64,000 bases of DNA from Physcomitrium patens (lineage: Eukaryota > Streptophyta > Bryopsida > Funariales > Funariaceae): the NCBI RefSeq assembly GCF_000002425.4, contig NC_037269.1, positions 14,481,309 to 14,545,308 on the forward strand, written 5' to 3'. Shown piece by piece: positions 20,892 to 46,087 of this stretch (within the stretch, counting starts at the first letter, position 1; the number at the start of each line of letters is the position of its first letter). Made by a program: the position numbers and the translations under genes. The notes below the pieces were generated by a model that was not told where the DNA came from, searched no databases, and worked only from the letters and a program-made list of their open reading frames with translations.

Positions 20892-21409
20892 TATCAAGGA
20901 CATGAATCTTGAAGAAAGAGACTCCTCGATACACTCTTGTATCACTGAAGAGAACTAGAAAGTCACTTAAAAGGTAATATAATATTAACTATAATGGCTT
21001 TACAAAAAACAAGAAGACTAGAAAGTCTTGAAACAAGAGTAAGGACTAGAACGGTGTTGACAAGAGTGAAGAAGGCTTCATTCTTACCTCCATATATACT
21101 CTTAACTAGGAACTAGATGGTGATGTCCTATATGACCTTCAAAACATGTTGACTTTGCTGGCCACATGTCTTAACTTGCAAGGCAAGTTATCTATATATG
21201 TGCCACATGGTTAGCTTGTTCCACAAGCTACCAACATGTAGTTAACTTATTAGCCAAGTTTTTGACCTACAAATACATGTAAAGTCAAAACCGCATCTAT
21301 AAAACTTCTAGGAAGCTTCATTATAAGACTTTATGAAATTAATCTATATTTATCTACTTGTACTTAATTATATAAGTAATTATTGAAGTAAATGTTTGTA
21401 TCCATAATA
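20892..21409 (-). repeat. 5' LTR of the minus-strand gypsy copy
   Basis: 518 bp, sense start TATTATGGATAC, sense end GTCCTTGATA. TATA at 21098-21090 is followed by the 11-mer complementary to the primer-binding site. It is homologous over its length with the LTR at 13546-14093. Confidence 0.75.
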
Positions 21410-26179: not shown

Positions 26180-26517
26180 GATCACGGATATACATATTTA
26201 TTCTAATAATTATCTATATGATTAAGTAGAAGTAGATAAAAATAGATAAAAATAGATTGATATCATAATATATTCTAAAAAAGCTTTCTAGAAGCTTCAT
26301 AGACACGATTTTGACTTTATACGTGTTTATAGTTGACTTTTAGGTTAGAAACTTGGTCAATAAGTTAGCAAGGTGTCATATATATGGATAGCTTGTAGAA
26401 TAAGCTAACTATGTCAGTTATGCATAGAAAACTTGCCTTGCAAATTAAGTTATGTAGCTTGTAAAATCAATACATATTACAAGTTTTATAGAACATCGCC
26501 TTGTAGTTCCTAGGTCG

Positions 26518-26560
<43 letters not shown>

Positions 26561-26649
26561 GCAAGAATAAAGCTTTCTTCACTCTTTCCAAGTCCTTTCT
26601 TATTCTAGTCTAGATTCAAGAGTCTTTAATTTTCTTATCTTTTGCCAAA

Positions 26650-26686
<37 letters not shown>

Positions 26687-26785
26687 ATTTTTTTAATATA
26701 CATGTTTCTTTACTTCAATTATGTTATACTACTTTGAAAAAATTCTCACTTAATTATTTCTTTCATTGAATTCTTATCCTTAATA
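26180..26785 (+). repeat. gypsy 5' LTR, expanded by simple repeats
   Basis: Starts near GATCACGGATATAC (decayed TGTCACGG) and ends CTTAATA. At about 606 bp it is longer than its relatives because the TATA region has grown into a (TA)n tract (about 26518-26558) and U5 carries a T run of about 38 nt (about 26649-26686). Start is plus or minus a few bases. Confidence 0.65.
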
Positions 26786-26787
26786 GA

Positions 26788-26798
26788 TTGATAAGAAT
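26788..26798 (+). promoter_or_regulatory. decayed self-type primer-binding site
   Basis: TTGATAAGAAT, two bases after the LTR end. Its reverse complement matches ACTCTTTCCAA in the same LTR (downstream of the TA-expanded TATA) at only 8 of 11 positions, as expected for an old copy. Confidence 0.5.
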
Positions 26799-27002
26799 AT
26801 ACTTACAATATCAAAGTTTTGTCTTTTCTTAATTAAAAGTAGATTATTCATTTTTCTTGATAAGACATAAGCGTATTAGAAGTTGCAGATTACCCTCTTT
26901 TAAACTGATATTATTCTTAGTATTTTTTTTGTTCTTAAGTCCTCTCTTATATTTGTCTTGAGAAATATTAGATATATTATTTTTTTAAAGTATTATCATC
27001 AT

Positions 27003-30000
27003 AAAATATCTTGAAATAAAAAGTGTAATGGCACAAATCCAAAAGAAATGGAGAAAATTAATACTTGGAATGTATTAATTCAATTTTCTACCATAAAGAA
27101 TAACAAAAATAGCAAGGAGCAAAAATATAGAGATGATTGGATATTTGCACCAAATCATGTTCCTTCTCCTATAGTAGAATATCTTTCAAATATTAGAAAA
27201 CTAAAAATTGTAATACCTAAGAAGTTTGTTGGCACAAGATCCAAGTTTTGAAGATTTATTAATCAAATATAACTTAAGATGGAACTTTAATTCCAAATCT
27301 ATACAATTTCAAGATTAAAAATTACATTCATTAATATACTTCTTTGAAGTTTAGTATTATCATAGTTTTTATCTTTTTTTGAATGATGAAATCCAATATT
27401 AGATAATTTGAAGGCTTTTGTGGCAAAATTTTGATCCATGTATAGAAAAAATAATAAAATTTATATTACAACCAACAAGATCTATATTTTGTAACAAGAT
27501 AATCAATTAATAATGTTATATATTTCATAATTTTAATAACTTGCAATTGATATCAAATGAAATAATGTTGCTTTCATTAGCCAATTTTTCTATGGATTAT
27601 AATATGAGGTAAAAAAATTGATGCTCAATTTATTTGATCTTCAAACATTGAATTAAACAATTGATTTTGTTATGAAGTGTAACAATTAAATTTTTGAATT
27701 TCAATTTGAGAGTTGCACAAGTCATCTTTAACATTATTATAATTCAATGGCAACACCAAGGTTTCTTCAACACATACATTTGAAAGTAGAAGATATGCAA
27801 ATTCATGCAATATATTTTAAACTTCTTATTGAGAAAGAAAAGACTTGTCATTGTGAAGGAGGATTGTACTTATATTATTAAGAACCTAAGTACATTAGTC
27901 AACTTTGTCCAAAGAAGCGATGCAACCATAAAATGAGGAGTATGGCTATTAAAGAAGATAGTATGTCAAAAAACAAGTTTGTCTAGCTACAATAGAGACC
28001 AAGTATTTGGAACCTTATACAACACCTAATAAAGGTCATATTCTCTTCTCAAAACACTCTTTATGTTTTAAAATAAATATTATTTTAAGACCTAAATATC
28101 ACAAAGCCTTTATTTTATTAGTTTCATGAGTCTCAGTATGTTTTTTAGATAAAAAATTTGTTAAAATATATAATATATCTTTAATGAAGAAAACTAAATT
28201 TGTTCATATAAAAACCATAGATAGTCATCTATTCTCTTCAAGAAGTATTACTCATAAAAATACTTCCTATAGAAGTAACAAATAATAGTCAAAGTAGCCT
28301 TGTAGTATTTAATATGATTAAAATTTCTTTTAATCCAATGATTTTATATTTATCATGGTTAAAAAAATATAATCTTAAAATAGATTGAATTTCTTATAAT
28401 CTTGATTTTTTTTAAATATTACTAAAAGTGTAATTAATCAAATAAAAAGTCATAAGTCTAGTACAACTAAATCTATATTTGTAGGTACAAGAGCTTTCTT
28501 TCAACCTACAAAAATAGGATTATCTTATGTCATTTTTGTTGCACTTATTTTTAATAGTAGAAAGACTTAAAATAACATTTTAAGCCAATATTAAGATTTT
28601 AAAGTTATATTTGAAAAAAAAATGTAAATACTCTTCTAAAACATCATTCCTATGATTATTAAATTGACCTTCAAGAAGTAGGTCAACTATCATTTGGACC
28701 AATCTACAATTTAATACAAAAAAAATTGGCTAAACTCAAGGAGTGTATTAAAAAATGTAGCCAAGAACTTTATATGCTATTCAAAATTTCTACCAAGAGC
28801 TGTAATTTTATTTATGATGAAAAGAAATAAATCATTTTTGATGTATATTGATTATTGAGGACTCAATAAAATCACTATCAAAAACATGTATCTACTACTT
28901 TTGATATCTAGACTTCTTTATTAGTTGAATCAAATTAAGATCTATATAAAAATAGATCTATGAGGAACATATAATCTTGTATGTATAAAAAAAAAGATAA
29001 ATGAATGATTGCATTTTGAATTAGGTATGGACATTTCAAATACAACGTCATGACTTTTGGACTTATAAATGCACTTGCAGCTTTTTAACATCTAATAAAT
29101 AATATCTTTTGAGAGTTTTTAGATGACTTTATTGTTTGTTATCTAGATGTTATCTTAATCTATTTTAAGAATATAGAAGAATATAAACTTTATATTCATT
29201 ATATATTACAAAAACTAAGAGATGTGAGATTCTATACCAAGATAAAAAAGTATGTATTTTACACTATTTAAGTTGACTTCTTAAAATATAATATTTCAAA
29301 TGATGGACTTATGATGGATTCTAAGAAAATTCAAACTATTATAGATTGAAAGATTTCAAAAATAATAAGAAATGTCTAATATTTTTTGTAATTTATCAAC
29401 TATTATAAAATCTTCATTAAAGATTTCTTTCAAATTGTAGCTACACTTATGTGTTTGATTTATAAAGACAAATTTTAATAAAATCAAGAAATAGAAGTAA
29501 CATTTGAAGCTTTTAAGATGGCCTTTATTTTTACACCAATCTTGTATTGAGTTGACTTTTTTAAGCCATTCTTTATGAAAACAGATGCATCGAACTTTGC
29601 TTTGGATGTTATAATGTCATAAACGAAAATAGATGATAAATTATACTTGATAGCTTTTCATTCGAGAAAATTTTAAGTAGCCAAAATCAACTACAAGATT
29701 CATAATAAAGAACTTTTTGCAATGATAGATTCATTTCAAGAATGGCGCCACTATTTAGAATATGCTTTTAATCCAATCATTGTTTATATAAACCACAAGA
29801 ATCTTAAATATCTTATATCAAGTCATATTTTGAATCATTGCAAAGTCTATTAGAGTATGTTTTGATAAAGTTTTGATTTCAAGATCACTTATCAATTCGA
29901 AAAATAATAAGATTTATCAGAATGTCTTTTTTAGACATTTTTATTTTATATATAAAAAAGAGATATATCTTTTGATCATTAAAGAATAATTCTCTTGAAG

Positions 30001-30612
30001 CTAGAGTATTTCTATCTTCAAGCAATAAAATCACTATAGACTATTAATTCAACTTTTGTCAAATAAATTCAATCAAGTATGTCTTCTAATCTTCTTGTTC
30101 AAGATATCAAGAATTCTTCTATTAAATCTCATGATGCTTCTAAGTTTAAGTTCAAAAGCAACCTACTCTATTTTTAAGGATGTTTATATATTCCAGAAGA
30201 AAAAGTATATTCATATATTCCTTAAGTACATCATGACTTTCTAATCGAGAGATATTTTAGATATAATAAGGCTTTATAGCTTATATCTAGAGATTTTTAG
30301 AGGCTATAAATATGAAAGAGAGTAAAAGACTTTGTCAAATCATATAATATTTTTTCAAGGTCAAAAATTCCTCATCATCAACCTTATGGATTTTTGTAAT
30401 CAATGTCTATATCCAAAAAACTATGATATTTTATTTCTATAGATTTTATTATGGATCATCTAGTCTCAAGTTTATATGATTTTATATTTATAATAATAGA
30501 TTATTTGATCAAAATAACATATTTTGTACTATGTATAAAATCTATTATAGGAAAAAAATAGCTAAGTTTTTTCTAAAAAATTTCTATTACTTTCATGGAT
30601 TATTCAAGGATA
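27003..30612 (+). pseudogene. gag-pol remnant of the old gypsy copy
   Basis: Recognisable blocks in order: gag start with AQIQKKWRK; TRSKF followed by TGA (27249-27251), shared with other copies; a degenerate zinc knuckle near 27871; protease region near 28080-28300; RT near 28800-29320, with CYLDVILIYF in place of YLDD; RNase H near 29560-29900 (ALDVIMS, YINHKNL); zinc-binding and core integrase up to 30612. Dozens of stops and frameshifts. Confidence 0.7.
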
Positions 30613-30887
30613 TGTCACAAATATACATATATAGTTTAATAAATACCTATATGATTACATAGAAGTAAGTAAAAGTAAATAAAAATAGATTAATTTCATA
30701 ATATCTTCTAGAAAAGCTTTTTAGAAGCTTTATAGATATTACTTTGACTTTACATATAATTATAGTTGATTATTAGATTAGAAACTTGATCAAAAAGTTA
30801 ATCACATATTGATAGCATGCAAAACAAGATAACTATGTGCAGCATATATAAAAAAACTTGCCTTGCAAGTTAAGATACATGTCTTAC
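30613..30887 (+). repeat. left half of a split gypsy LTR
   Basis: Starts TGTCACAAATATAC, directly abutting a broken integrase frame of the older copy. It runs to CTTAC at 30883-30887, where the outer element was inserted. The other half resumes at 45816. The joined length is about 547 bp, as expected for this LTR family. Confidence 0.8.
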
Positions 30888-31261
30888 TGTTAGGGACATA
30901 ATCCTTAGAACCTTCTAGAGACAAGTTTCTAGAACCTTCTAGAAGCAAGTCTCTAGAACCTTCTAAAAGCTTCTTAGTTGATAGAAGATGTTAGGGACAT
31001 AGTCCTTAAAACCTTCTAGAGATAAGTCTCTGGAACCTTCTAGAAGCTTCTTAGTTGGTAGAAGTTGCTTGAGAAGCTTCCTAAATAGGAATATATATTA
31101 GAATCAAGGCTGAAGAGCTCTTCAGTCTCGACAACACATCTCTTGGAGCTATAGCTCACCTCTCTGGTGTTGTTCTTGTATTCATCTGATTAATCTAGTT
31201 CTTGCCAGTTCTTCTTGAATTTCTTGTTAGATCTCGAGTCTGTATTTCTGTGTCCGTGACA
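30888..31261 (+). repeat. 5' LTR of the outer element
   Basis: TGTTAGGGACAT to TGTCCGTGACA, 374 bp. The left part is made of tandem CTTCTAGA-type words (AACCTTCTAGA, AAGCTTC) repeated about every 20-30 nt, a likely enhancer-type repeat array in U3. The 3' LTR has one extra block of these, explaining its greater length. Confidence 0.85.
31092..31134 (+). promoter_or_regulatory. TATA box, palindrome and predicted transcript start of the outer LTR
   Basis: TATATAT at 31092-31098. A 20-nt palindrome (31108-31127, one G.T pair) follows. AGTCTCGACAA begins at 31124, 32 nt after the first T of TATA, and pairs over 11 positions (one G.U) with the site at 31264-31274. Confidence 0.65.
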
Positions 31262-31263
31262 GT

Positions 31264-31274
31264 TTGTTGAGACT
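31264..31274 (+). promoter_or_regulatory. self-complementary primer-binding site, outer element
   Basis: TTGTTGAGACT, two bases after the LTR end. It does not start TGG and fits no tRNA 3' end that I recognise. It complements AGTCTCGACAA in the LTR. The sequence differs from the inner element's site, but spacing and complementarity are the same. Confidence 0.65.
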
Positions 31275-31541
31275 TCACTCACTTCAGATATCAGAGTTAG
31301 TTTCTTCCTCGTTAGAGTGCGGATTATCCCTCTGCTTGGAAGCGTACTAGCATTTTAGAGGTTGCGGATTACCCTCCTCCAAACTGATATTTCTTTTGTT
31401 ACAATATTGGAGTCTTATTCTTCTTAGAGAGAGTGGATTATCCCTTTTCTTGAAGCTCTTAAGGCATTTTAGAGGTTGTAGAGTACCCTCCTCTAAACCA
31501 ATATTGTCTTCTTGTAGAGTCATTTCTATCCTTCTCTTAGA
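31275..31541 (+). promoter_or_regulatory. leader with repeated GGATTAYC hairpins
   Basis: Stem-loops at 31314-31333 (4-bp stem), 31354-31383 (8 bp, one mismatch) and 31468-31497 (8-bp perfect stem TTTAGAGG/CCTCTAAA), plus a weaker one at 31429-31448. Loops contain GCGGATTATCC, GCGGATTACCC and TGGATTAT; the loop at 31476-31489 has drifted. A packaging or dimerisation signal is an inference from position. Confidence 0.5.
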
Positions 31542-32555
31542 ATGGCCGGAGGCCAAGACATTAATATGACGGAAAGTTTGGAGTCCAAGTTGGATGCTAT
31601 CATGAATGCCCTCGCTACGTTATTACAAAGAACTGCAGAGATTAAAGGAGTTCTGGCAAGGCTTCATAATGATAGAGCATTTGGGATGGCATAATGTAGG
31701 TTGCACCAGCCTCAAACTTCTGCACTTGGAGAAGCAACTTTGCCTCAGGTTCGACAAGAACCACTGGTTCTACAACATAAGGAGCCCCGACTTAGCCTTC
31801 CGGACAAGTTCGATAGTACGCGTTCCAAGTTTTGAGGATTCGTGAATCAAATCAGGTTGATAACAGTTTTACAGCCTGAACGCTATCCAACGGAGGAGTC
31901 ACGTGTTAGGCTTATTGGAACCTTACTTACAGAACAAGCTCTATCATAGTTTGATCTTTTGTTTGAGAAACGATCATCCATACTAAACAACTTTGAAACC
32001 TTTTTGGAGGCGTTTGCAGAAGCATTTGGTAAACAAGACAAGGTTCGATGGGCTACAACAAAGATCCGGTCACTACAACAAGGCATGCGCTCTACATCAG
32101 TCTATGCATCGGACTTCAGGCAATTAACATGCGACATCAATTGGGACGAAGAAGCGTTGATGAGTCAATTCTATTAGGATTTAAGGGATGATGTGAAGGA
32201 TTTGCTGTTAACTCTTCTTGATCCACAAACGCTCAACGAAGCTATTAGCGAAGCTATGAAGTGCGATAATCGTCTATTTCAACGTCGCCAAGATCAACGT
32301 TCAAGACAACATATGGTTTGCCTTGTCCCAACTATGGCAAGCAGCATGAATATACATTCAGAGGTAGAAGACATGCAAATTGATGCGATATGTATCAAAT
32401 CTCTTACTCTAGAAGAAAAAAAACGACGTATGGAGGAAGGTCTATGCTTGTATTGCAATGAAGAAGGCCACAAAGTTGGAAACTGCCCCAAGAAGCAAAA
32501 TCGACGTATTGTCAAGATTAGGGGCACGTTTGTTCAGGAAAACGAGGATGCCTAG
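31542..32555 (+). pseudogene. gag of the outer element, decayed
   Basis: ATG at 31542 (MAGGQDINMTESLE) runs 50 codons to TAA at 31692-31694. After a frame change the capsid part resumes. A TGA at 31833-31835 follows SKF, as in other copies, then FVNQIRLITVLQPERYP and later TLLDPQTLNEAISEA. The zinc knuckle CLYCNEEGHKVGNC (about 32447-32488) has all CCHC residues, the only intact knuckle in the window. The frame ends at TAG 32553-32555, and pol follows in the -1 frame. Confidence 0.75.
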
Positions 32556-34280
32556 CTACAATAGGAACCGTGCAGCTGGATAGTGAAATATCGCAACAAC
32601 AACCAGGTTCCTTTCTTTCTGCTCAACCTGCCCTTTGCTTTACAATCTCTTTGCTTATTGGCCCTCAGAAATTGAGAACCTTAGCATTATTAGATTCAAG
32701 AGTATCTGCTTGTTTCTTAGATAAAGAATTTGCGAAGTGTCATAAGATCCCTTTAGTACAAAAATCCAAACCTGTTCACGTTGAAGTCATAGATGGACAA
32801 CCTTTATTATCTGGTAGTGTCACCCATGAATCAAAACCTATAAAAGTGACGTTTAAGGGCCATAGTAATCATATTATTTTCAATATTATTAGAATCCCAT
32901 CAAATCCTGTTATTCTTGGTCTTTTCTGGTTGGAAAAGCATAATCCATCCATAGATTGGAGGTTGCAAAAGATGACCTTTCGCACAAAACCATCCAAGAA
33001 CAAGCCTAGTAGAAAACTCCAAATAGAGAAATCTTTATTCGTTGGAGCAAGAGCGTTTATAAGATCATCCAAAGAAGGTACACCATTTGTCATTTATGCA
33101 CCTCCAACTACTGAGGAGAAGATCTTGATAACAAGTATACCTGAGCAATATAAGGATTTTAAAGACATGTTTCAAAAGAAGAATGCCAACATGCTACCGA
33201 AACACCGACCATATGATTGCGCCATAGACTTACAGGCAGAAGTAGAACTACTTTTTGGCCCAATCTACAATCTATTGCAGACGGAGTTGGCAGAGTTGCA
33301 GAAGTACATCACGAGAATCTAGCCAAGAACTTCATCCGTCATTCAAAATCGTCAATTGGCGCACCCATCTTATTTGTGAAGAAGAAAGATGGCTCGTTGT
33401 GGATGTGTGTGGACTATCGAGGCCTCAACAAGGTATCAAAGAAGAATCGTTATCCATTACCTTTGATTTTTGGTCTCTTAGAACAACTTGGACGTGCAAG
33501 GATCTTTATAAAAATTGATCTAAGGGGAGCTTACAACCTCGTATGAATCAAGGAAGGAGATGAGTGGAAGACAGCGTTCTATACAAGGTATGGCCATTTT
33601 GAGTATAATGTCATGCCATTTGGTCTTACCAATGCTCCAATGGTCTTTCAACATATGATCAATGATATTTTCCGAGAGCACCTTGACGATTTTGTTGTCA
33701 TCTATTTGGATGATATTCTGATCTTCTCCAAAAATGAGGAAGAGTATGAAAAGCACGTTCGTTTGGTCTTAAAGAAAATACGCGAGCGAGGACTATATGT
33801 CAAGTTCGAGAAGTATTTATTTCACCAAATAGAGATGGAGTTTTTGGGATTCGTTGCGACTACGGAAGGCCTAAAGATGGACCCCAAGAAGGTGGAAGCA
33901 ATCGTATCCTGGGAGTTTTTGAAGACAGTTAGAGACGTACAATGCTTTCTTGATTTTGCCAACTTCTATCGGATCTTCATCAAGAATTATTCTCAAGTTG
34001 TTGCTCCTCTGACTCGGTTGACATGCAAGGATAAGCTGAAATGGGGACTTCTAGCGGAGAAGGCGTTTCAAGACCTGAAGATCGCATTTACTATGGCTCC
34101 AATCTTGGTATATCCAAACTTTACAAAGGCCTTTTATTTAGAAACTGATGCTTCGGATTTTGCTTTGGGAGCTGTACTTTCACAAATGGGAGAAGACAAG
34201 AAGCTCCATCCGGTTGCATTCTATTCTCGAAAGTTCTCTGCTGTTGAAATCAATTATGAGATCCACGATAACGAACTTCT
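32556..34280 (+). pseudogene. pol of the outer element, 5' part (PR-RT-RNase H start)
   Basis: The protease keeps ALLDS but the catalytic Gly is Arg (DSR), so it is probably dead. A frameshift near 33311 moves the frame before [14 protein letters not shown] continues with [17 protein letters not shown], a TGA at 33544-33546 (LV*IKEG; one CpG change from CGA) and an intact YLDD in VVIYLDDILIFSK (about 33697-33735). RNase H begins LETDASDFALGAVLS (about 34138) and stops at 34280 where the inner element is inserted. The frame is continuous into 40657. Confidence 0.8.
34276..34280 (+). repeat. 5-bp target duplication CTTCT, left copy
   Basis: CTTCT at 34276-34280 and again at 40652-40656, exactly flanking the TG...CA ends of the inner element. 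Proof of a simple insertion. Confidence 0.9.
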
Positions 34281-34832
34281 TGTCACGGCCATAATCATGT
34301 AAGCTAATAATTACATATAGAAATAGGTAGAAGTAAGTAAAAGTAGATAAAAGTAAGTTAATTCTATAATATTTAATATAGAAGCTTCCTAGAAACTTCC
34401 TAGACGCTGCTTTGACTTCATAGGTGTCTTAAATTGGCTTTTTGGATTAGAAACGTGGTCAACAAGTTGGCCATGTGCCACACATGTTGTTAGCTTGAAG
34501 ATCAAGCTAACTATGTGGCCCACACGTAGAAAAACTTGCCTTGTAAGTCAAGGCATGTGTCCTATAAAGTCAACACATATTGGAGGTCCTATAGAACGTC
34601 GCCACCTAGCCCCTAATTAGATAGTATATATAGAGACAAGAGTGAAGGCTTCTTCACTCTTGTCAACTCCTTTCTTGCTTCTAGTCCAGGTTCAAGAGTC
34701 TTTAGTTTCTTGTCTTGTAGCAATAGCCATTCCAGTTTCCTTTTAATATACCTACTTGTTTATATTTTGACTTATTATATCGAGATAGCATTTTTGTGTA
34801 TATTTTCCCTCATCAAGTCTTTGTCTTTGACA
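34281..34832 (+). repeat. 5' LTR of the inner element
   Basis: TGTCACGGCCAT to TCTTTGACA. U3 holds a 9-bp stem, GTTAGCTTG/CAAGCTAAC (34489-34511, loop AAGAT); similar inverted pairs with other loop sequences recur in related LTRs. TATATATA at 34625-34632. U5 is T/C-rich. Confidence 0.92.
34625..34666 (+). promoter_or_regulatory. TATA box, 12-bp inverted repeat and predicted transcript start
   Basis: TATATATA 34625-34632. A perfect 12-bp inverted repeat spans 34635-34646 and 34653-34664 (arm GACAAGAGTGAA, spacer GGCTTC). The predicted start, A34656 in a C/A context, is 31 nt after the first T of the TATA. The first 11 nt from there (ACTCTTGTCAA, 34656-34666) are exactly complementary to the PBS at 34835-34845. 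The start position is inferred from TATA spacing, not measured. Confidence 0.7.
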
Positions 34833-34834
34833 GA

Positions 34835-34845
34835 TTGACAAGAGT
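34835..34845 (+). promoter_or_regulatory. self-complementary primer-binding site, inner element
   Basis: TTGACAAGAGT, two bases (GA) after the LTR. It pairs exactly with the predicted first 11 nt of the transcript and pairing stops at both ends. In Tf1/sushi-type elements the first 11 nt of the mRNA fold back on the PBS and, after cleavage by RNase H, prime cDNA synthesis. Confidence 0.7.
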
Positions 34846-35044
34846 ACACTCACAATATCAGAGCTTTATTTTTTCTTGAGTAAGAGTGGATTACCTCTTT
34901 CTCTTGACAAGACATAAGCGTATTAGAAGTTTGCGGATTACCCACTTCTAAACTGATATTGTTCTTAGTATCTTCTTTGTTATCAAGTCTTTCTTTTCTT
35001 TTGTCTTGAGCAATATCAAACAAATTTTTCTTCTTAGTGTCATT
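34846..35044 (+). promoter_or_regulatory. leader with two hairpins carrying the GGATTAC loop
   Basis: Stem-loop 34882-34899: AAGAG/CTCTT around TGGATTAC. Stem-loop 34923-34951: perfect 8-bp TTAGAAGT/ACTTCTAA around TTGCGGATTACCC. Compared with the outer element's TTTAGAGG/CCTCTAAA stem the paired positions change together. No upstream ATG of note precedes the gag start at 35045. Confidence 0.55.
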
Positions 35045-36082
35045 ATGGCAGAGCTTGTTGAAATGAAGAGTGCAATGGCACAAATGCAAGAGCAAATGAG
35101 GGAGTTAATGCTTGCGATGCATCAACTCAATTCACAAACACAGGAAAGAACAAGAATAGTAGAAAGTGGAGATATTGAGATGATCGGAGTTGCTTCAATA
35201 TCTACAACAAATCACGTTCCTTCTCCAATTGTACAACACCCTATAAGCACTAGAGAACCAAGAATTGCCTTACCTGAGAAATTTGATGGTACGAGATCAA
35301 AGTTTTGAGGGTTCATCAATCAAGTACAATTGGCAATTGAACTTCAACCGCAAAGCTATCCAACTCCAGGATCACAAGTCAGGTTTATTGGCACTCTACT
35401 TTCTGGTTTTGCATTATCGTGGTTTTCGTCTTTTCTTGAACAACGAAATCCAATATTGGACAATTTGGAAGCTTTTTTGGTGGAGTTTCGATCTATGTAT
35501 GGTGAACACGATGCAACTTGTGTTGCAACAAATAAGATCCGAATTCTGTGACAAGAAAATCGCTCAGTAACAGTATATGCTTCACAATTTCGACAACTTG
35601 CAATTAACATCAAGTGGGATGATGCTGCACTCATCAGTCAATTTCTTTATGGATTGCAATACGAAGTAAAGAAATTGATGCTCATCTTACCTGATCCTCA
35701 AACTTTGAGTCAAGCAATCGATTTTGTGGTAAAATGTGATAATCGACTTTTCGAATTTCGATCCAAAAATCATTCATGGGAACCTCAACGTTATTACTCA
35801 ATGACAACATCAACATCTTTGCCAAACGTATATTTAGAAGTAGAAGACATGCAAATTGACGCGGTACATTTTAAACCCGTAACTGAGCAAGAAAAGATTC
35901 GTCGTCGTCAAGAAGGATTATGTTTATATTGCGGAGAATCTAAGGACACTGCTCAACAATGTTCAAAGAAACGACGCAACTATAAAATGAGGGGTACGAC
36001 GATCAAAGAAGACAACATGTCGAAAAACGGATTCGTCCAGCTAAATTGGGACCGTGCAGCTGGAACCTTGTACAATTCCTAA
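35045..36082 (+). pseudogene. gag of the inner element with two in-frame TGA
   Basis: ATG at 35045 (MAELVEMKSAMAQMQEQMRE, coiled-coil-like N-terminus). The frame runs 345 codons to TAA 36080-36082, interrupted by TGA at 35306-35308 (after TRSKF) and 35549-35551 (after TNKIRIL); both positions are stops in other copies too. Retrotransposon-gag signatures: LSGFALSWFSSFLEQ, YASQFRQLA, LPDPQTLSQAIDF. The zinc knuckle CLYCGESKDTAQQC has Asp where His is expected. A one-base deletion in CAGCTAAATT (about 36039-36048, against CAGCTACAATAG in relatives) removes the usual gag stop and extends the frame into the pol overlap. Confidence 0.85.
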
Positions 36083-39000
36083 TGAAGGTCTTATCCTCTC
36101 CTCAGAACCCTCTCCTTGTTTTATAATAGACTTATATTTAGGACCTAAGAATTACAAAGCCTCTGCTTTATTAGATTCGGGAGCCTCAGCATGTTTTTTA
36201 GATGAACAATTTGTTAAAAGTCGTAAAATACCTTTTGTACAGAAACCTAAACCAGTACATGTAGAAGTCATAGATGGTCGTCCCTTGTCTTCTGGAGATG
36301 TCACTCATGAAACTCATCCTATAAAAGTAACGATAGACGGTCAGGATAGCTACATAGCTTTTAACATAATTAAATCCCCGTCCAATCCAATTATTTTAGG
36401 TTTATCCTGGCTAGAAAAATATAACCCTCGAATAGATTGGAATTCGCATAAACTTGACTTTTCCCAAAGCGTTATTAATAGTTCTACCAACCAAGTAAAA
36501 AATTATAAGTCTAGTATAATAAAACCCGTACTGATAGGTGTAAAAGCATTTATACACTCAGCAAAAGAAGGATCAACTTTTGCTATTTATGCTGCACCTA
36601 TTTCTGAAAACGTAAAGACTTCAATTGGCATTCCAAGTCAATATCACGAGTATCAAGACGTTTTTGAGAAAAAGAATGCAGATATTCTTCCTGAGCATCG
36701 CCCATATGATTGTTCAATCGACCTCAAGGAAGGAACTCAGCCACCATTTGGACCAATTTATAGTTTATCGCAAGATGAGACGGCTGAACTCAAGACATAT
36801 ATTGACGAGAATTTAGCAAAGAATTTCATACGCCATTCAAAATCTCCAGCAGGAGCTCCAATTCTATTCGTAAAGAAAAAAGATGGATCTTTACGAATGT
36901 GTGTTGATTATCGAGGACTCAACAAGATCACAATCAAGAACAGGTATCCATTACCTTTGATATCAGGACTCCTTGACCAGTTGAATCAAGCTAAGATCTA
37001 TACAAAAATAGATCTAAGAGGAGCATATAATCTAGTACAGATCAAAGAAGGAGATGAATGGAAGACTGCGTTTCGAACCAGGTATGGACATTTCGAATAT
37101 AATGTCATGTCCTTTGGACTCACGAATGCACCAGCTGCTTTTCAACATCTCATGAATGATGTATTTCGTGAATTCTTAGACAATTTTGTCGTCTGCTATC
37201 TAGACGATATCCTGATCTATTCTAAGAACGTCGAAGAACATGAAATATATGTTCGTCAAGTATTACAAAAACTTAGAGATGCAGGATTGTACGCCAAGAT
37301 GGAAAAGTGTGTATTTTACACTACTCAAGTTGACTTTTTAGGATACATCATTTCAAATGATGGTCTCATGATGGATTCTAAGAAAGTCCAAACAATCATG
37401 GATTGGAAGATTCCAAGGACAGTAAGAGATGTCCAATGTTTCTTGGGATTTGCCAATTACTATCGGATCTTCATCAAAGATTTTTCACGAGTTGCAGCTC
37501 CACTTACACGCTTGACTAGTAAAGATAAATTCCAATGGAATCATGAAGCGGAAGCAGCATTTGAAGCCTTGAAGACATCGTTTGTCTCTGCACCAGTCTT
37601 ATATCGTGTTGACTTTTCCAAGGCATTTTTATGGAAACAGATGCATCAGATTTTGCCTTGGGTGCAGTTTTATCACAAATGGGAACAGATGACAAACTTC
37701 ATCCGATAGCTTTTCATTCAAGAAAATTCTCAGCAGCTGAGATCAATTATGAGATCCACGATAAAGAACTTCTTGCGATCGTGGATTCCTTTCAAGGATG
37801 GCGTCATTATCTACAAGGCGCTTCTAGTCCAGTCACTGTGTATACAGATCACAAGAACCTCGAATATTTCATGTCAGCACGCGTATTGAATCGTTGTCAA
37901 GCTCGTTGGAGTATGTCTTTGTCAAGATTCGAGTTCATTATCACTTATCGGCTAGGAAAACAACAAGGTTTGTCTGATGCATTATGTAGACGTTCTTATT
38001 TTGCACCAAAAGAAGGAGATGCAGCTTTTGAGCAACAAAGAACGGTCCTCTTGAAACCGGAGCAATTTCATCTCCGAGCAATGAAATCAACATTGACTGT
38101 TGATTCATTTTTTCTCAAGCAAATCCAGTCTAGTATGTCCTTAGACCCTCTTGTTTATGATATCGAGAATAATTCTTCCAAGTCTTATGATCCTTCTAAG
38201 TTCGAATTCAAGAATAATCTATTATATTTTGAAGGACACCTATATGTTCTAGAAGGAGAAGCACGTTTACGTGTTCTTCAAGCACGTCATGACTTTCCAG
38301 TAGCAGGGCACTTTGGATATAATAAGACTTTGGAACTCATATCAAGAGATTTTTGGTGGCCACAAATGTGGAAGTCAGTCAAAGACTTTGTACAATCATG
38401 TGATATTTGTTCAAGATCAAAAATTCCTCGTCATCGACCTTACGGACTTTTTCAGCCATTACCTATATCAGAACAACCATGGTCTTCTGTTTCTATGGAT
38501 TTCATCACAGATCTTCCAAGCTCAAGATCTTATGATTCTATATTTGTGATAGTAGATCGTTTCACCAAGATGGCACATTTTGTGCCATGTACAAAATCTA
38601 TCACAGGTGAAGAAACAGCTAAGCTTTTCATTGATAATATCTATCGCTATCATGGATTACCTAAAGATATCATATCAGATAGGGGAACTCAATTTGTATC
38701 AAGATTTTGGAGGACCCTTTTCAAGATTTTAAAAGTGGACATAAAGCTATCTTTGGCTTTCCATCCTCAAACTGATGGACAAACAGAGCGCGTAAACCAA
38801 GTCTTGGAGCAATATTTAAGGTGTACTATCAACTACCAACAAGATGATTGGACAACCCTTCTGCCATTGGCAGAGTTTGCTTATAATAATACGGTACATT
38901 CTTCCACGCAACAAACACCTTTCTTTGGCAATTATGGCTATCATCTACGACTTGATACTTTTGATTTTTCAAAAGTTGATAATCCTGCAGCAGAAGATAT

Positions 39001-39541
39001 GGCAAATCGGTTGTCAAAGTTATATGCAATAATGAAGATGCAATTGAAGGAAGCTCATGAACGACAAAAGATAAACGTAGATCTATATCGTAAAGAGCAA
39101 CCACAAATCAACGTGGGTGATAAGGTATGGCTACTTCGTCGCAATATCAAGACTACTCGACCTTGTGACAAGTTGGACTATCGTAGGCTTGGCCCCTTTT
39201 CTGTTTCTGAACAGATCAATTCAGTTGCATATCGGTTACATTTATCGGAGTCAATGAAGATCCATCCTGTATTCCACGTGTCTCTTCTTGAACCATATAA
39301 GACAATGGATATACAAGGAAGAAGACAAATGCCACCGCCTCCTATAGAAGTAGATAATAATGAAGAATTTGAGGTGGAAGAGATATTAGACTCAAGGCGG
39401 CGTCGAAATAAGCTGGAATATCTTGTTTATTGGCACGGATATGATATTAGTGAATGCACATGGGAGCCATCCAGGAATCTAGGAAATGCATCAGCTAAAG
39501 TCAAAGTTTTTCATCAACGACATCCATCAAAACCAAGATGA
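36045..39541 (+). pseudogene. pol polyprotein (PR-RT-RNaseH-IN-chromodomain), one frameshift
   Basis: Protease with catalytic DSGA (D at 36174-36176). RT about 36750-37330 with [10 protein letters not shown] (YLDD at 37197-37208). RNase H about 37600-37970 with TDASD, HDKELL and YTDHKNL acidic residues. Integrase: zinc-binding HH-CC region about 38275-38425 (SCDICSRSK), then a D,D-35-E core (MDFITDLP; D at 38678; E at 38786). A GPF/Y-type module follows ([24 protein letters not shown]), then a C-terminal chromodomain about 39360-39520 (EVEEILDSRRRRNKLEYLVY). The frame breaks once, at the T run 37626-37630, which is one base short relative to sister copies. A stop (TAA 36042-36044) precedes the open pol frame, so expression must come by frameshift from gag. 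There is no separate initiator ATG at its start. Confidence 0.92.
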
Positions 39542-39635
39542 AAATCTCTCTTATAAAAGAGACAAGATTGAGGCAAGATAACATTCAATTTTCTATCCTT
39601 GTTTGTAACTTCTTTGCATTTGTGATGCTAATTAG

Positions 39636-40058
39636 ATGGAGAGCCAACAACCAGCGGATTTAACTCAAGAACCTTTGTTTGCTGACCTGTCGGACAAGAC
39701 ATTACGATTGTCTCAACCTTCAAGACGACGTAATCGAGATGAAGAACTTCAAGAACGACATGTTCTTCCTCGAATAGATGGTGAGATACAACGCGTTTGG
39801 TATCACGATTTGGGAAGGGACTCTCGATGTTTGGTGATTTTGCTAGAGGTAGGAACAACTCCTGATGGTGTTCCGAATATTCTATTCGAAGGAAGTTACG
39901 AAGGCCTCAACAATGATCAAATAATTGGGTGGTCTTCCCGCCCTGGTATGGGACACTACCGATGGTTGAGAGGCCCTATCAATCATCTTCGAAGAGAACA
40001 GAGTTCAGAGTATGTGGCGAATACAATTGGTCCCATCATAGATTTCCTCAACATATGA
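39636..40058 (+). CDS. third ORF between pol and 3' LTR, unknown function
   Basis: 140 residues from ATG 39636, fully open, 94 nt after the pol stop. Residues 1-45 are polar and Arg/Glu-rich (RLSQPSRRRNRDEELQERH). Residues 46-100 read like a compact beta-rich fold (VLPRIDGEIQRVWYHDLG, LVILLEVGTTPDGVPNILF). Residues 105-140 carry the best conserved part, MGHYRWLRGPINHLRREQ, and end FLNI. No signal peptide, transmembrane segment, zinc finger or nucleic-acid-binding motif that I know. It occupies the position of env-like or accessory ORFs in other gypsy elements, but without a membrane anchor it does not look like an envelope. Homologues lie in the outer element (42550-42672 + 45108-45338), in the copies ending at 14135 and 62152, and as a trace near 50400-50480. 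A structural accessory or nucleic-acid-binding role is only a guess. Confidence 0.8.
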   Translation: MESQQPADLTQEPLFADLSDKTLRLSQPSRRRNRDEELQERHVLPRIDGEIQRVWYHDLGRDSRCLVILLEVGTTPDGVPNILFEGSYEGLNNDQIIGWSSRPGMGHYRWLRGPINHLRREQSSEYVANTIGPIIDFLNI

Positions 40059-40085
40059 TGACCGCTCCTCGTGGAACTCATCTCT

Positions 40086-40096
40086 AGAAGGGGGGG
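40086..40096 (+). promoter_or_regulatory. polypurine tract of the inner element
   Basis: AGAAGGGGGGG, three bases before the 3' LTR. Plus-strand priming site. The same position in relatives reads GAAGGGGGAG (62181) and, on the minus strand, AAGAAGGGGG (14108-14099). Confidence 0.85.
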
Positions 40097-40099
40097 TAA

Positions 40100-40651
40100 T
40101 GTCACGGCCATAATCATGTAAGCTAATAATTACATATAGAAATAGGTAGAAGTAAGTAAAAGTAGATAAAAGTAAGTTAATTCTATAATATTTAATATAG
40201 AAGCTTCCTAGAAACTTCCTAGACGCTGATTTGACTTCATAGGTGTCTTTAATTGACTTTTTGGATTAGAAACGTGGTCAACAAGTTGGCCATGTGCCAC
40301 ACATGTTGTTAGCTTGAAGATCAAGCTAACTATGTGGCCCACACGTAGAAAAACTTGCCTTGTAAGTCAAGGCATGTGTCCTACAAAGTCAACACATATT
40401 GGAGGTCCTATAGAACGTCGCCACGTAGCCCCTAGTTAGATAGTATATATAGAGACAAGAGTGAAGGCTTCTTCACTCTTGTCAACTCCTTTCTTGCTTC
40501 TAGTCCAGGTTCAAGAGTCTTTAGTTTCTTGTCTTGTGGCAATAGCCATTCCAGTTTCCTTTTAATATACCTACTTATTTATATTTTGACTTATTATATC
40601 GAGATAGCCTTTTTGTGTATATTTTCTCTCATCGAGTCTTTGTCCTTGACA
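40100..40651 (+). repeat. 3' LTR of the inner element
   Basis: 552 bp, identical in length to the 5' LTR. About a dozen substitutions separate them by my reading (about 98% identity). It is followed by CTTCT (40652-40656), the second copy of the target duplication. Confidence 0.92.
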
Positions 40652-40656
40652 CTTCT

Positions 40657-42411
40657 TGCTATAGTGGATTCTTTCCAAGAATGGCGTCACTTTCTTTAAG
40701 GAGCTGTACATCCAGTGACCGTATACACAGATCACAAGAATTTGGGGTATTTCATGTCGGCTCGAGTTCTAAATCGACGTCAAGCTTGATGGAATATGTT
40801 GCTATCTAGGTTCGATTTTGTTATCACTTATCGACTTGGAAAGCAATAAGGACTATCTAATGCCTTATTGAGGAGATCGTATCTTATACCAAAGGCTGGA
40901 GAGACAGCGTTTGATCAACAATATACGACATTGTTGAAGCCAGAGCAATTTCAACTTTACGCTACTATTGTGCCAATTGATGTTGACTTCCTGAATCAGG
41001 TACATGCCATGACCATTGAAGATTCAGTAGCCATTGATATTAAGAAGCATGCCAATGACGACAAGTTCAAGGTGGAGGAAGATCTTTTATACTTTGAGGA
41101 GCGGTTATATATCCCAAAAGGATTAGCACGACTTCAAGTTCTTCAATCTCGCCACGATTTTCCAGCTGCAGGATATTTTGGATTCAACAAGACCTTGGAG
41201 CTTATTTCTCGAGATTTTTGGTGGTCCCAAATGTGGAAGGATGTGAAAGATTTTGTCCTCTCCTGCAACATCTGTTCAAGATCCAAGAATCCTCGGCATC
41301 GCCCTTGTGGACTCTTACAGCCATTGCCGATTTCACGTCGACCATGGTCTTCAATTTCCATGGACTTCATCACGGACCTGCCATCATTGAACTCATTTGA
41401 CAGCATCTTTGTCGTGGTAGATCGGCTTATAGAGATGGCGCACTTTGTCCTTTGCAAGAAGACATCGTCTAGTGAAGTCACAGCAAGGCTCTTTCTCGAT
41501 TATGTGTATCGATATCATAGACTACCAGATGATATCATATCTAATCGAGGAATCCAATTTGTATCAAAGTTTTGGAGATCTCTTTTTGAGATACTGAAGG
41601 TGAATATCAAGCTTTCTTACGCTTTTCATCCTCAAACTAATGGCCAAACGGAATGGGTGAACTAAGTCTTGGAACAATACTTATGATGCAGCATCAACTA
41701 TCAGCAAGATGATTGGACCACATATCTGTCGCTAGCCGAGTTTGCATATAACAACATCCTCTATGGGTCGACTCAATACACACTATTCTTTTTCAACTAT
41801 GGGTATCATCCGAAGCTTGATTTATTGAGTCCATCAACAAATAACAATCCAGCAGCTGAAGGATTTGTGAAACAACTATCAGAGCTTCAAAATACATTGA
41901 AGCTCCAATTACAATCCGCTCAAGAATCCTACAAGGCATCTACAAATAGATTTCGGAATTAAGCACCTACTTTCAAAATTGGAGATAAAGCATGGCTTCT
42001 TCGATGGAATATCAAGACCAAGCAACCATGTGATAAGTTGGACTAACGAAGATTGGGACCATTTATCATCCAGAAGCAAATCAATCCAGTGGCGTACCGT
42101 TTGGAATTACCGGCTTCAATGAAGGTACATCCAGTCTTTCATGTTTCTTTGTTGGAGCCTTATTGAGAGTCGTCTTTTCCTAGAAGAGTGCAATGTCCAC
42201 CACCTAGTATTGAGATCGAGAACCATCAGAAATACGAGGTTGAAAAGGTACTGGATTCACGGCGAAGGTGGGATAAGTTGGAGTATCTTGTTCATTGGTT
42301 CGGCTACGACATTAATAAGCGAACGTGGATGCTAGTTGAAAATCTCGCCAATGCACCGTAAAAGGTACAGGAGTTTCATCAACAACATCCTCATAAACCT
42401 AAGCCGGTTTG
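40657..42411 (+). pseudogene. pol of the outer element, 3' part (RNase H-IN-chromodomain)
   Basis: Continues the frame interrupted at 34280 (LLAIVDSFQEWRHF). Then stops in RNase H, an open integrase stretch 40868-41665 (zinc-binding SCNICSRSK; core SMDFITDLPS), a TAA at 41663-41665 in the QTEWVN region, further stops, and a chromodomain at about 42205-42395 (YEVEKVLDSRRRWDKLEYLV). One stop falls near the domain end. Broken by roughly half a dozen stops. Confidence 0.8.
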
Positions 42412-42549
42412 ACGATAGCTTCTTTCTGAAGCTTGCTCACCCAAGAATATAAGAAAAAGAGAGAGCACTACCAAAATTCGTAGTTGATGTAGTTATTTTC
42501 TCCAAGATAAAATAGAATTTTTTCAGTAGCCATAGTTTGGTCTTCTGAT
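42412..42549 (+). other. spacer between pol and third ORF of the outer element
   Basis: About 140 nt, purine-rich in the middle. The inner element has a 94-nt spacer in the same place. No splice or promoter signal is obvious. Confidence 0.5.
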
Positions 42550-42672
42550 ATGGATAGCCAAGAGATAGATACTATGCCAGTCAGATTATCTCAACCAACT
42601 AGCTCACGAAAGCAACCCTGAGATGAAGAACCGCCTACACCACAACGACGATGGAGGATACCGAGTAATCGA
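42550..42672 (+). pseudogene. third ORF of the outer element, N-terminal part
   Basis: ATG at 42550, MDSQEIDTMPVRLSQPTSSR, in line with RLSQPSRRR of the inner element. A TGA at 42619-42621 stands where the inner element has CGA. The frame runs to 42672, where the fold-back element is inserted. Removing the insertion and one copy of TCGA leaves the frame continuous into 45108, so this really is one ORF. Confidence 0.7.
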
Positions 42673-45103
42673 TGTCGTGTTGTAACACGAGTATACCGTG
42701 AAAATATAAAGAAAGGGGACCTTTATTAATATTCAGTTACCTCGAATATTAGGAGCAACGACCAATTCCAGTGCAAATACTGAGAGGCCAGGTTCAGTCA
42801 CCCCGTTACAGTCAGCAGGGGCATACTGAAATGCTCCATTCGATTCCAATAACGAGAGTCAGCAGGAAGGGAAAGGACCAATTCAACGACAGGTGAGCCT
42901 GGTTCGAAGAGCCAATTGGATCCAATTTCAAGACATCCAATTCGGATCCTCTTACCCAATATGAGACCTGACTTGGTTGAGCAATCCAATGCGGACCAAT
43001 TACGGGAACATCCAGGTCTTACTACGGGCCTCTTAGCCAATATGAGACCTGAATTGGTCGGGCGACTCAATGTGGTCCTGATTACGAGGTTTCGATTCTG
43101 TTTCAGGCTGTCCTGTTCTTTGTGCTGTTTTGAGATCATCCTTTCGGTAAAAGGATCTCTTAAAAGTAAAAACGAAGGAAAAAGCTCTAACGGCAGTGTC
43201 GTATTACGTGCTTTCCTGCTCGAGAACGTGTCGGGCGTCTAGTTGTAGAAGGTAGTATGGAGATTTGCTAAAATTCAAGCAGTCTATCGGTTTTCGACTG
43301 TTGGAATATAAACAACCACAAAAATATACTGTAAATCTTTATGGATGTCCTTCGATTGCTCACCGAAATCCTTTTTGCCCTAGCCGGTAGGTCTCCAGAT
43401 GTTACAGAGAACCCCGAACAACCCAAACTGCTAATCTTCGATACCGCTTTATACTCACGATCTTATACCCACTGACTGTCTCGTTAGATTAATCCAATAA
43501 ATTACATTCACTCCGCATACTCAATCCCATAGATACCCTTTTAATTCTTCATCACAGACGTAACTCGATTTTACAAAACAGTCAAGAGTAATCACACCCA
43601 CTTGATTAAAATCCCGATTCACCAGTACAATACTTTGACTATTCAGCAACGATTACCTCAGTCTTTCCAAATCCTATGAAGAAAAAAAACCTCCAATTCT
43701 CTGTCTTTTCTTCCCTGAAGCATAAAGCTCGCTCTCTGACCCTTCTCAAAACCTTCTTCTCTCCCCTTTTTCAAACCCTAGCCTCTGAATTTCTTCAATC
43801 TTCCGTCTTGGATCCGGAATTGGCTCCCGCCGTCAGAGCTTTCTCCTCCATTTTTACCTTTAAGAGATCTTTTTATCGAAAGGACGTTCTCGAAACAGCA
43901 CAAAGGACGGAACAGCCTGAAATGAAATCGGAACCCCCGTAATCGGGACCACATTGAGTCGTCCGACCAATTCACGTCTCATATTGGGTAAGAGGCCCGT
44001 AGTAAGACCTGGATGTTCCCATAATTTGACCGCATTGGATTGCCCGACCAATTTAGGTCTTATATTGGGTAAGATGCCCGTAGTAACCTGGATGTTCCCG
44101 TAATTGGACCGCATTGGGTTGCCCGACCAATTCAGGTCTCATATTGGATAAGACCTGGATTGGATGTCTTGAAATTGGATCCAATTGGCTCTTCGAACTA
44201 AGCTCAGCCATCATTGAGTTGGTCCTTCCCCTCCATACTGACTCTCGTTATTGGAATCGAACGGAGCATTTTAGTATACCCCGACTGACTGTAACGGGGT
44301 GACTGAACCTGGCCTCTCAGTATTTGTACTGGAATTGGTCATTGCTCCCAATATTCGAGGTTACTGAATATTAATAAAAGTCCCCTTTCTTTATATTTTT
44401 ACGGTATACTCGTGTTACAACACGACAGCAGAGCCAATTTCGAATCCAAGATGGAAGATTGAGGAAATTTAGAGAGTAGGATTTGAGAGAGGGGAGAATT
44501 AGGGTTAAAGAGGAGGATAGGTTAAGAAATGAGGGGAGAGAATAGGTTTTGGAAGAAGGATCGGAGAGCTAGCTTCATGCTTCGGGAAGGGGAAAAAAGA
44601 CAAAGAATTGGATTTTTTCTTCATAGGTTTTTGAGAAGACTGAGGCAATCGTTGCTGAAGTCAGTGTTGTACTGGTGAATCGGGATTTTAATGAAGTGGG
44701 TGTGATTACTCTTGACTGTTTTGTGAAATCAAAGTTACGTTTGTAATTGAAGGATTAAAAGGGTGTCTATAGGATTGAGTATGCGGAGTGAATGAAAATT
44801 TTTGGGTTAATCTAACAAGACAGTCAGTGGATACAAGATCGTGAGTATAAAGCGGTATCGAAGAGTAGCAGTTTGGATTGTTCGGGGTTCTCTGTAACGT
44901 CTAGAGACCTACTGGCTGGGACAAAAAAGAACTTCGGCGAGTAGTCGAAGGACATCCTTATAGATTTACGATATATTCTTGTAGTTGTTTATATTCTAAC
45001 AATCAAAAACTGATAAACTGCTTGAATATTAGCAAATTTCTATATTACCTTCTACAACGAGATGCCCTACGTGTTCTCGAGCAAGAAAGCACGTAATATG
45101 ACA
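42673..45103. mobile_element. fold-back: TG-ended element with an inverted copy of itself inside
   Basis: Starts TGTCGTGTTGTAACACG, ends CACGTAATATGACA, flanked by TCGA (42669-42672 and 45104-45107). Reading it as A (42673-43196), B (43197-43832), A' (43833-44427) and B' (44432-45103), A' is the reverse complement of A and B' that of B. So the whole is one unit (A plus B', about 1.2 kb) split by a reversed unit (43197-44427) inserted with its own 4-bp duplication, GCAG. No coding region: the ORFs seen in it are on mirrored strands without motifs. Related to the element at 18195-19848. Confidence 0.85.
43197..44427 (-). mobile_element. inverted second unit inside the fold-back
   Basis: 1231 bp; on the plus strand it begins TGTCGTATTACGTG and ends TTACAACACGACA, the reverse complements of the family's end and start. 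It is flanked by GCAG at 43193-43196 and 44428-44431. This third 4-bp duplication in the family (TCGA, GCAG, CCGC) supports a defined integration mechanism. Confidence 0.85.
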
Positions 45104-45107
45104 TCGA

Positions 45108-45338
45108 TCACTAGTAATTGTATTTGAGTCCGAGCCTACTTACGATGGTCAGCCAAAAGGCGTGTTTGTAGGACAATTTCACAATGAGGACATGGAAGTT
45201 CATGCTTGGTCAGAAGTTGAAGGAGTAGGCCACTACTGTTGGCTTCAAGGACTGATGAACCACTTGCCTTGTGAACAACAGTTGGAGTTCATAGCAGACA
45301 TTATGCGACAGATCTTCATTTTCTTGCGTTGGTACTGA
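45108..45338 (+). pseudogene. third ORF of the outer element, C-terminal part
   Basis: 76 open codons from SLVIVFESEPTYDG to WLQGLMNHLPCEQQLEF, stop TGA 45336-45338. It shares with the inner element the pattern GHYxWLxGxxNHLxxEQ and the spacing to the C-terminal FL, although DNA identity is low. Interrupted by the fold-back after the first 41 codons. Confidence 0.75.
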
Positions 45339-45374
45339 TTAAGAACAACATTGCTTCTCAAAGACCTCGAAGCT

Positions 45375-45385
45375 AAAGGAGGGGG
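45375..45385 (+). promoter_or_regulatory. polypurine tract of the outer element
   Basis: AAAGGAGGGGG, three bases before the 3' LTR at 45389; same layout as in the inner element. Confidence 0.8.
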
Positions 45386-45388
45386 TGA

Positions 45389-45810
45389 TGTTAGGGACAT
45401 AATCTTTAGAACCTTCTAGAAATAAGTTTCTAGAACTTTCTAGAGACAAGTTTCTAGAATCTTCTAGAAGCAAGTCTCTAGAACCTTCTAAAAGCTTCTT
45501 AGTTGATAGAAGATGTTAGGGACATAGTCCTTAGAACCTTCTAGAGATAAGTTTCTAGAACCTTCTAGAAGCAAGTCTCTGGAACCTTCTAGAAGCTTCC
45601 TAGTTGGTAGAAGTTGCTTGAGAAGCTTCCTAAATAAGAATATATATTGGAATCGAGGCTGAAGACTTCTTTAGTCTTGAGAACACATCTCTTGGAGCTA
45701 TAGCTCACCTCTCTGGTATTGTTCTTGTATTCATCTAATTAATCTAGTTCTTCCCAGTTCTTCTTGAACTTCTTGTTAGATCTCGAGTCTGTATTTCTGT
45801 TTCCGTGATA
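45389..45810 (+). repeat. 3' LTR of the outer element
   Basis: 422 bp, TGTTAGGGACAT to TTCCGTGATA (CA decayed to TA), followed by the target duplication CTTAC (45811-45815). It has one more CTTCTAGA-type block than the 5' LTR. Confidence 0.85.
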
Positions 45811-45815
45811 CTTAC

Positions 45816-46087
45816 AAAGTCTACACATTTTGGAGATCCTATAAGACATCTCTACATAGCTTTTACTTAAGAGTATATATGGAAGTAATACTAAAGCCTT
45901 TTTTATTCTTGTCGAAGCTTACTAATCTTTAGTCTTATTTTAAGACTTTCTTGTCTTTTTGTCTTCTTATCTTTAGTAATAACTATTTTAATTGAATACT
46001 ATATCATCTTTGGGTGACTTTTTAATTCTTTACAATAGTACAAAAGTGTGTTGAGGATTTCTTTCTTTAAGATACATGTCCTTGATA
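45816..46087 (+). repeat. right half of the split gypsy LTR
   Basis: Continues the LTR begun at 30613: its TATA (TATATATGG, about 45876) and U5 end GTCCTTGATA are in the expected order. The transcript-start 11-mer has decayed to ATTCTTGTCGA (9 of 11 against the PBS). Confidence 0.8.

Follow-up and report, generated by a model that had tools for sequence, protein, structure and literature searches.

In the moss Physcomitrium patens, a chromovirus LTR retrotransposon that is likely Tcn1-like and likely a member of RLG1 is probably self-primed: its sequence predicts that, as in Tf1, reverse transcription is primed by the 5'-most 11 bases of the element's RNA. This reading rests on a TATA box, an 11-mer spaced 31 nt from it, a primer binding site (PBS) that starts two bases past the LTR, the lack of a TGG there, and a second family (B) whose primer and PBS differ from those of the first (A) yet match each other. 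What is new is a hairpin at the predicted U3/R border, which changes along with the primer from A to B and for which folding models suggest a role. Unless a locus is named, coordinates refer to the window, the whole 64,000-nucleotide stretch of P. patens DNA that was analysed.

Layout of the inner element and its primer/PBS match

The inner, A-type element occupies 34281-40651 on the forward strand, as delimited by its LTR pair and by the TSD CTTCT at 34276-34280 and 40652-40656. Its 5' LTR (34281-34832, forward strand) reads TGTCACGG...TTTGACA, with TG...CA ends, and is 97.8% identical to the 3' LTR (40100-40651, forward strand), ahead of which lies the polypurine tract AGAAGGGGGGG (40086-40096, forward strand). 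The pol region (36054-39541) is split between two overlapping ORFs in different reading frames of the forward strand, the first (36054-37709) matching aspartic protease and reverse transcriptase, and the second (37631-39541) with RNase H, integrase, a Tf2-1-like SH3 domain and a chromodomain (about 39368-39520); two other ORFs, at 35654-36082 and 39636-40058, matched no Pfam family. The chromodomain region matches PF00385 and PF24626 and retains F, W and Y at the positions that we take to be those of the aromatic cage. These domains, in a moss genome, bear out the label of plant chromovirus that an earlier annotation made from the letters alone (hereafter, the sequence-only reading) had given the element. 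Among 120 listed of 6333 pol relatives, four carry a eukaryote name, all of them fungi (Absidia, Ustilago, Tremellales and Podosphaera; 43-47% identity), and one further relative carries the name of a bacterial MAG. Despite the fungal look of pol, a fungal host is rejected: the plastid contig of the genome (C101) encodes a ChlB that matches that of P. patens at 100% identity across 510 aa, while no other of the 120 proteins listed exceeds 97%, and angiosperms lack chlB. Contig C100, with group II introns, tRNAs and frames resembling cox1, appears mitochondrial. The ends of the LTRs (TGTCACG at the 5' end, CCTTGACA at the end of the 3' LTR) fit the sushi-type motif TGTYANR ... CNTNACA as given in the accessible text of its source (PMC3601003).

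The element sits in a nest of related elements (26180-46130), where it splits the pol frame of an element that is older and apparently B-type. The 5' LTR of this B-type relative, apparently interrupted downstream by the inner element, lies at 30613-31261 (forward strand), and a piece of its 3' LTR runs to about 45808 and abuts a C-type LTR and PBS (45813-46100); a decayed relative in the nest starts at 26182. The U3 of the B LTRs (30888-31071 and 45389-45596) holds repeat units rich in CTTCTAGAA (TGTTAGGGACATAATCC...), whose arrangement differs between the two LTRs. Downstream of the inner element, at 42673-44930, are five inverted-repeat pairs with arms of 68-276 nt that are 90-96% complementary and about 0.8-1.2 kb between arms.

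The putative self-primer, ACTCTTGTCAA at 34656-34666 (forward strand), is the predicted RNA 5' end, an assignment drawn from the sequence match, null LTRs and the scan described below. It begins 31 nt from the start of the TATA box TATATATA (34625-34632, forward strand) and is exactly complementary to the PBS TTGACAAGAGT (34835-34845, forward strand), which starts two bases beyond the LTR end at 34832, following the spacer GA at 34833-34834. The sequence-only reading had claimed this 11-nt complement, its distance from the TATA box, the position of the PBS and the absence of a TGG tRNA site among the first bases past the 5' LTR; all of these, coordinates included, proved correct. By analogy with Tf1, transcription would initiate at 34656, the RNA 5' end would fold back onto the PBS, RNase H would cut following base 11, and the freed 3' end would prime minus-strand DNA; the primer may also serve to remake the PBS in each new copy.

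Computed folds agree with the pairing of the primer. When the leader of the inner element is folded from 34656, the MFE and centroid structures both pair the full 11-mer to the PBS, and in six of the eight leaders folded the free MFE equals that of a fold forced to hold the primer:PBS pairing. Of a Tf1-like pretzel, the central duplex is predicted for the inner element and in the free MFE of those six leaders; the side duplexes vary and are not clearly seen. Taken whole, the inner element's leader does not fold more stably than its shuffles (z -0.75; 49/200 shuffles as good).

Pairing across families A, B and C

Additional copies were collected with a filtered scan for a TATA box and 11 pairs, allowing a TATA-to-primer distance of 28-35 nt, across 244 kb made up of the window and 18 loci, L001-L007 of which had been chosen for exact matches. 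The filtered scan replaced a looser one for self-priming signals, which had returned 348 real versus 305 control matches, those listed being mostly AT repeats. The 18 rows of the filtered scan comprise 15 distinct element copies, two one-base shifts (L001 and L003) and one likely chance match (L007, minus strand). Two primer types appear among them: A and C copies carry ACTCTTGTCAA with TTGACAAGAGT, and B copies carry AGTCTCGACAA with TTGTCGAGACT. The distance from TATA box to primer is 31-32 nt in 15/15 copies, whereas that from primer to PBS varies from 137 to 188 nt. Elsewhere in the genome, 4.5 kb of the small contig C60 (locus L019, 3016-7465) hold snRNA genes for U1 (two), U4 and U5 (one each), together with a tRNA gene.

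The match could in principle have arisen by chance complementarity in AT-rich LTRs, and the reversed control of the filtered scan also yields 8 matches; the A or B primer, however, occurs in none of these control matches and in 15 real element copies. Under a Markov-1 null, in which a complement of 11 nt or longer had to start 0-7 nt past the LTR and the TATA distance was not yet required, such a complement to the inner (A) LTR arose in 44/20,000 and 32/20,000 LTRs (two runs), and 22/20,000 null LTRs had an 11-nt complement in the B family. A chance match is expected in about 1 in 600-900 per family and is seen in two families. Genome-wide (470 Mb), TTGACAAGAGT occurs 10,188 + 10,291 = 20,479 times versus 64 + 59 = 123 for the reversed pattern. 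With these numbers, we regard chance as a highly improbable explanation.

Set against A, the B family is changed at positions 2, 6 and 8 of the primer and, together with these, at positions 10, 6 and 4 of the PBS, and pairing is kept. The B copy in L005 joins primer AGTCTCGACAA to PBS TTGTCGAGACT by 11 Watson-Crick pairs, and the B-type relative in the window has AGTCTCGACAA at 31124-31134 and the PBS TTGTTGAGACT at 31264-31274 (both forward strand), which form 10 Watson-Crick pairs and one G.U. The window also has C-type copies. The one at the end of the nest has the primer ATTCTTGTCGA (45905-45915, forward strand) and the PBS TTGACAAGAGT (46090-46100, forward strand), with 9 Watson-Crick pairs and two G.U; two lie on the minus strand, one with its primer at 21057-21067 and PBS at 20879-20889, the other with primer ACTCTTATCAA at 8310-8320 and PBS TTGATAAGAGT at 8132-8142. 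A decayed primer, ACTCTTTCCAA (26581-26591, forward strand), is likewise followed by a decayed PBS, TTGATAAGAAT (26788-26798).

A tRNA, or an internal fragment of one, might instead prime these elements, the LTR match being incidental. Plant copia elements include users of half-tRNA primers, and such known cases lend this alternative some weight. According to the accessible text of Neumann et al. 2019, moreover, tRNA-Met is the primer of most plant chromoviruses (PMC6317226). Against it, TGG is absent from the first bases past the LTR in the A, B and C types alike, and tRNA priming would not explain why the B PBS changes together with the B LTR. The sequence-only reading had named a tRNA that matches the region after the LTR over more than 11 nt as contrary to its proposal; among the six tRNAs in the examined loci (five of them organellar), the longest post-LTR complements are 9 nt, from 19 nt in, and 6 nt, from 11 nt in, and neither spans the PBS. 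We therefore consider tRNA priming unlikely, and take self-priming as the best reading of the sequence.

How sharply the pairing ends depends on the type. In A copies the next pair outside the 11-mer at either end forms in 2/11, although 11/11 have single pairs further out, at offsets -3 and +12; in B copies the next pair is formed in 0/2 on both sides. In C copies an extra pair forms on the primer's 5' side in 3/3 and on the other side in 1/3, so C copies can pair over 12 positions. The claim that pairing covers exactly 11 nt and stops at both ends, made for the inner element, holds there. Full pairing within the 11-mer is itself partly a product of selection, because copies were found through that match; the A and B copies came from searches that required a primer/PBS match.

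To what extent the pairing is maintained was judged from a C sample of 38 diverged copies, drawn from 39 new matches (40 of 6934 candidates were scored). No covariation was found in these 38 copies: 389/417 cells are paired, versus a mean of 387.9 when the PBSs are re-dealt among copies, and 1856/5000 re-dealings are as good or better. All 11 pairs are kept in 15/38 copies counting G.U and in 6/38 if all must be Watson-Crick. The majority fraction is 0.906 for the primer and 0.921 for the PBS versus 0.881-0.919 for the flanks, so that neither is clearly more conserved. This pattern fits neutral decay of dead copies. The double change in the minus-strand copy at 8132/8310 was considered as covariation and rejected, since the same single changes occur freely in the 38 C copies, which show none (TTGATAAGAGT in 10/38 PBSs, ACTCTTATCAA in 3/38 primers). 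With no covariation in C, the case for maintenance rests on the single A/B split, with two B copies.

A hairpin over the predicted U3/R border

The primer lies within a 13-bp inverted repeat that the sequence-only reading overlooked. In the 5' LTR of the inner element, a perfect hairpin spans 34635-34664 (forward strand), with arms at 34635-34647 and 34652-34664 and the loop GCTT at 34648-34651. Its 3' arm consists of the four bases before the primer and the primer's first nine, so that 9/11 primer bases are covered. A perfect 13-bp stem with a loop of 3-8 nt arose in 0/5000 Markov LTRs. Each of the 13 stem pairs is present in 10 or 11 of the 11 A copies, and a fourteenth pair in 0/11. Of the two B copies, one lacks two stem pairs; one stem pair is lost in 3/3 C copies, and others are lost in some. 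The U3 arm of B, for which five B LTR matches were also drawn on, changes along with the B primer: in L005, GTCGAGGTTGAAG and CTTCAGTCTCGAC pair throughout, with two G.U. Because of this joint change, the 11-mer can be said to match the U3 arm on one side and the PBS on the other.

The two pairings compete in the folding models. The stem is predicted at -19.8 kcal/mol versus -14.4 kcal/mol for the primer:PBS duplex, of which the program counted 10/11 pairs. In the inner element, mean P(primer:PBS) is 0.89-0.95 for RNAs that start between -15 and 0 relative to the primer, 0.03 at -19 and 0.00 from -24; starts downstream lose the pairing from +4 (0.15). We extended this start-shift folding to 16 copies (11 A, 2 B and 3 C). 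For RNAs starting at the primer, 9/11 A copies give a P(primer:PBS) of 0.76 or more, the exceptions being one in L005 (0.36) and one in L013 (0.06); with 24 extra upstream nt it falls to 0.00-0.01 in 11/11. The two B copies give 0.95 and 0.03 at the correct start and at most 0.01 at -24; the zero of the window copy at -24 is uninformative, since its value is already 0.03 in silico at the correct start. The three C copies, whose stems are decayed, show no such dependence (0.88-0.94 at 0, 0.92-0.97 at -24), although further upstream one reaches 0.17 at -40 and another 0.32 at -80. Tolerance of upstream starts also differs among A copies, several of which lose pairing by -5 or -12 (at -5, one in L004 is at 0.01 and one in L006 at 0.16); the 15-nt tolerance is therefore the inner element's own and not general. 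When the 24 upstream bases are shuffled (10 shuffles per copy), the A copies recover to a mean of 0.50 (range 0.02-0.94) and the inner element to 0.81. Since shuffling restores pairing only partly, much of the loss at -24, though not the whole, can be put down to the stem.

We tentatively propose, from these models, that the hairpin may act as a start-site lock, burying the self-primer unless the 5' end of the RNA falls on the true start or a short way before it. An RNA starting at the primer would lack the 5' arm, leaving the primer free for the PBS; in one starting 24 nt or more upstream, the hairpin would form, the primer would be buried and the PBS would stay unpaired. The R copy in the 3' LTR (40475-40485, forward strand) lies within the same 13-bp hairpin (40454-40483) and folds into it with P 0.985, so it too would be buried. 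Priming would then be reserved for RNAs that start correctly and closed to read-through transcripts and to the R copy of the 3' LTR; the 11-mer would be held to both the PBS and the U3 arm, with the PBS remade from the primer each cycle. Such a lock, if real, would give a self-primed element a means of distinguishing its proper genomic RNA from read-through transcripts, a problem that does not arise for tRNA-primed elements.

There is also a fair prospect, somewhat short of even, that the hairpin works in the DNA, as a motif of the promoter or initiator, or in the 3' LTR as a signal for processing the 3' end, and is no lock in the RNA. In A and B copies, and in decayed form in C, it comes immediately downstream of the TATA box, a dimeric factor could bind U3/R palindromes, and the shuffled upstream bases bring primer pairing back only partly; an RNA and a DNA role are moreover indistinguishable by folding alone. 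Against this, the stem spans 9/11 primer bases and B's U3 arm tracks B's different primer, where one would expect the sequence of a promoter site to be conserved.

Relation to known self-primed elements

Yeast Tf1 gave the first demonstration of self-priming, which was later implicated in elements from fungi to vertebrates (PMC4600332). The accessible descriptions of Tf1 have the first 11 RNA bases serving as the primer, cut between bases 11 and 12 (PMC7175516), within a leader folded as a pretzel of three duplexes (PMC10085805). The moss element shares with the Tf1/sushi group of fungi and vertebrates the 11 first bases of the (here predicted) RNA that complement an LTR-adjacent PBS, an integrase with a chromodomain, and TG...CA LTRs with ends of the TGTYA/CNTNACA type (PMC7175516, PMC10085805, PMC3601003). 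It differs in that its RNA start and RNase H cut are predictions, in pretzel side duplexes that vary among the folded leaders, and in its 13-bp U3/R hairpin, which is not in the Tf1/sushi descriptions found. More widely, we found no start-site hairpin or palindrome in self-primed elements in the literature searched (including PMC5445492, and few subscription papers, all in their accessible portions), and one may be described elsewhere.

Within plants, the accessible text of Neumann et al. 2019 already predicts self-priming for most moss and club-moss elements of the Tcn1 clade (PMC6317226). The statement of the sequence-only reading that no such case was known in plants is thereby overturned, while Tf1/sushi-like self-priming in a plant chromovirus is still the best reading; self-priming, well supported by sequence in this element, had been predicted before for its likely clade and is hence not new in plants. 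The same paper predicts self-priming for the TAR elements Houba and Osr-1 (PMC6317226), which resemble the moss element as plant LTR elements predicted to self-prime and differ from it in being Ty1/copia elements, not chromoviruses.

The element likely belongs to the Tcn1 clade, known from mosses, club-mosses and basidiomycetes (PpatensLTR1, SM-Tcn1, Tcn1), with which it shares a moss host, an aromatic-cage chromodomain and predicted self-priming (PMC6317226, PMC2864245). Self-priming has also been proposed for the fungal Tcn1 (PMC7175516), and Novikova et al. 2010 placed P. patens elements in the Tcn1 branch (PMC2864245). For SM-Tcn1, the accessible part of that study reports no primer, neither a tRNA nor self-priming (PMC2864245); in contrast, the primer and PBS of the moss element are both exact, and the 11-mer is present some 20,000 times in the genome. 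In P. patens the dominant Ty3/gypsy family is RLG1, described as carrying a chromodomain, with 5092 complete copies and expression in protonema (PMC7466625). As an extremely abundant gypsy element of that moss, likewise with a chromodomain, the present element is likely RLG1, an identification made from abundance and domains against the published description of that family. In this model moss the 11-mer is found about 20,000 times; if the element is RLG1, its expression in ordinary protonema tissue would make start sites and strong-stop DNA directly measurable.
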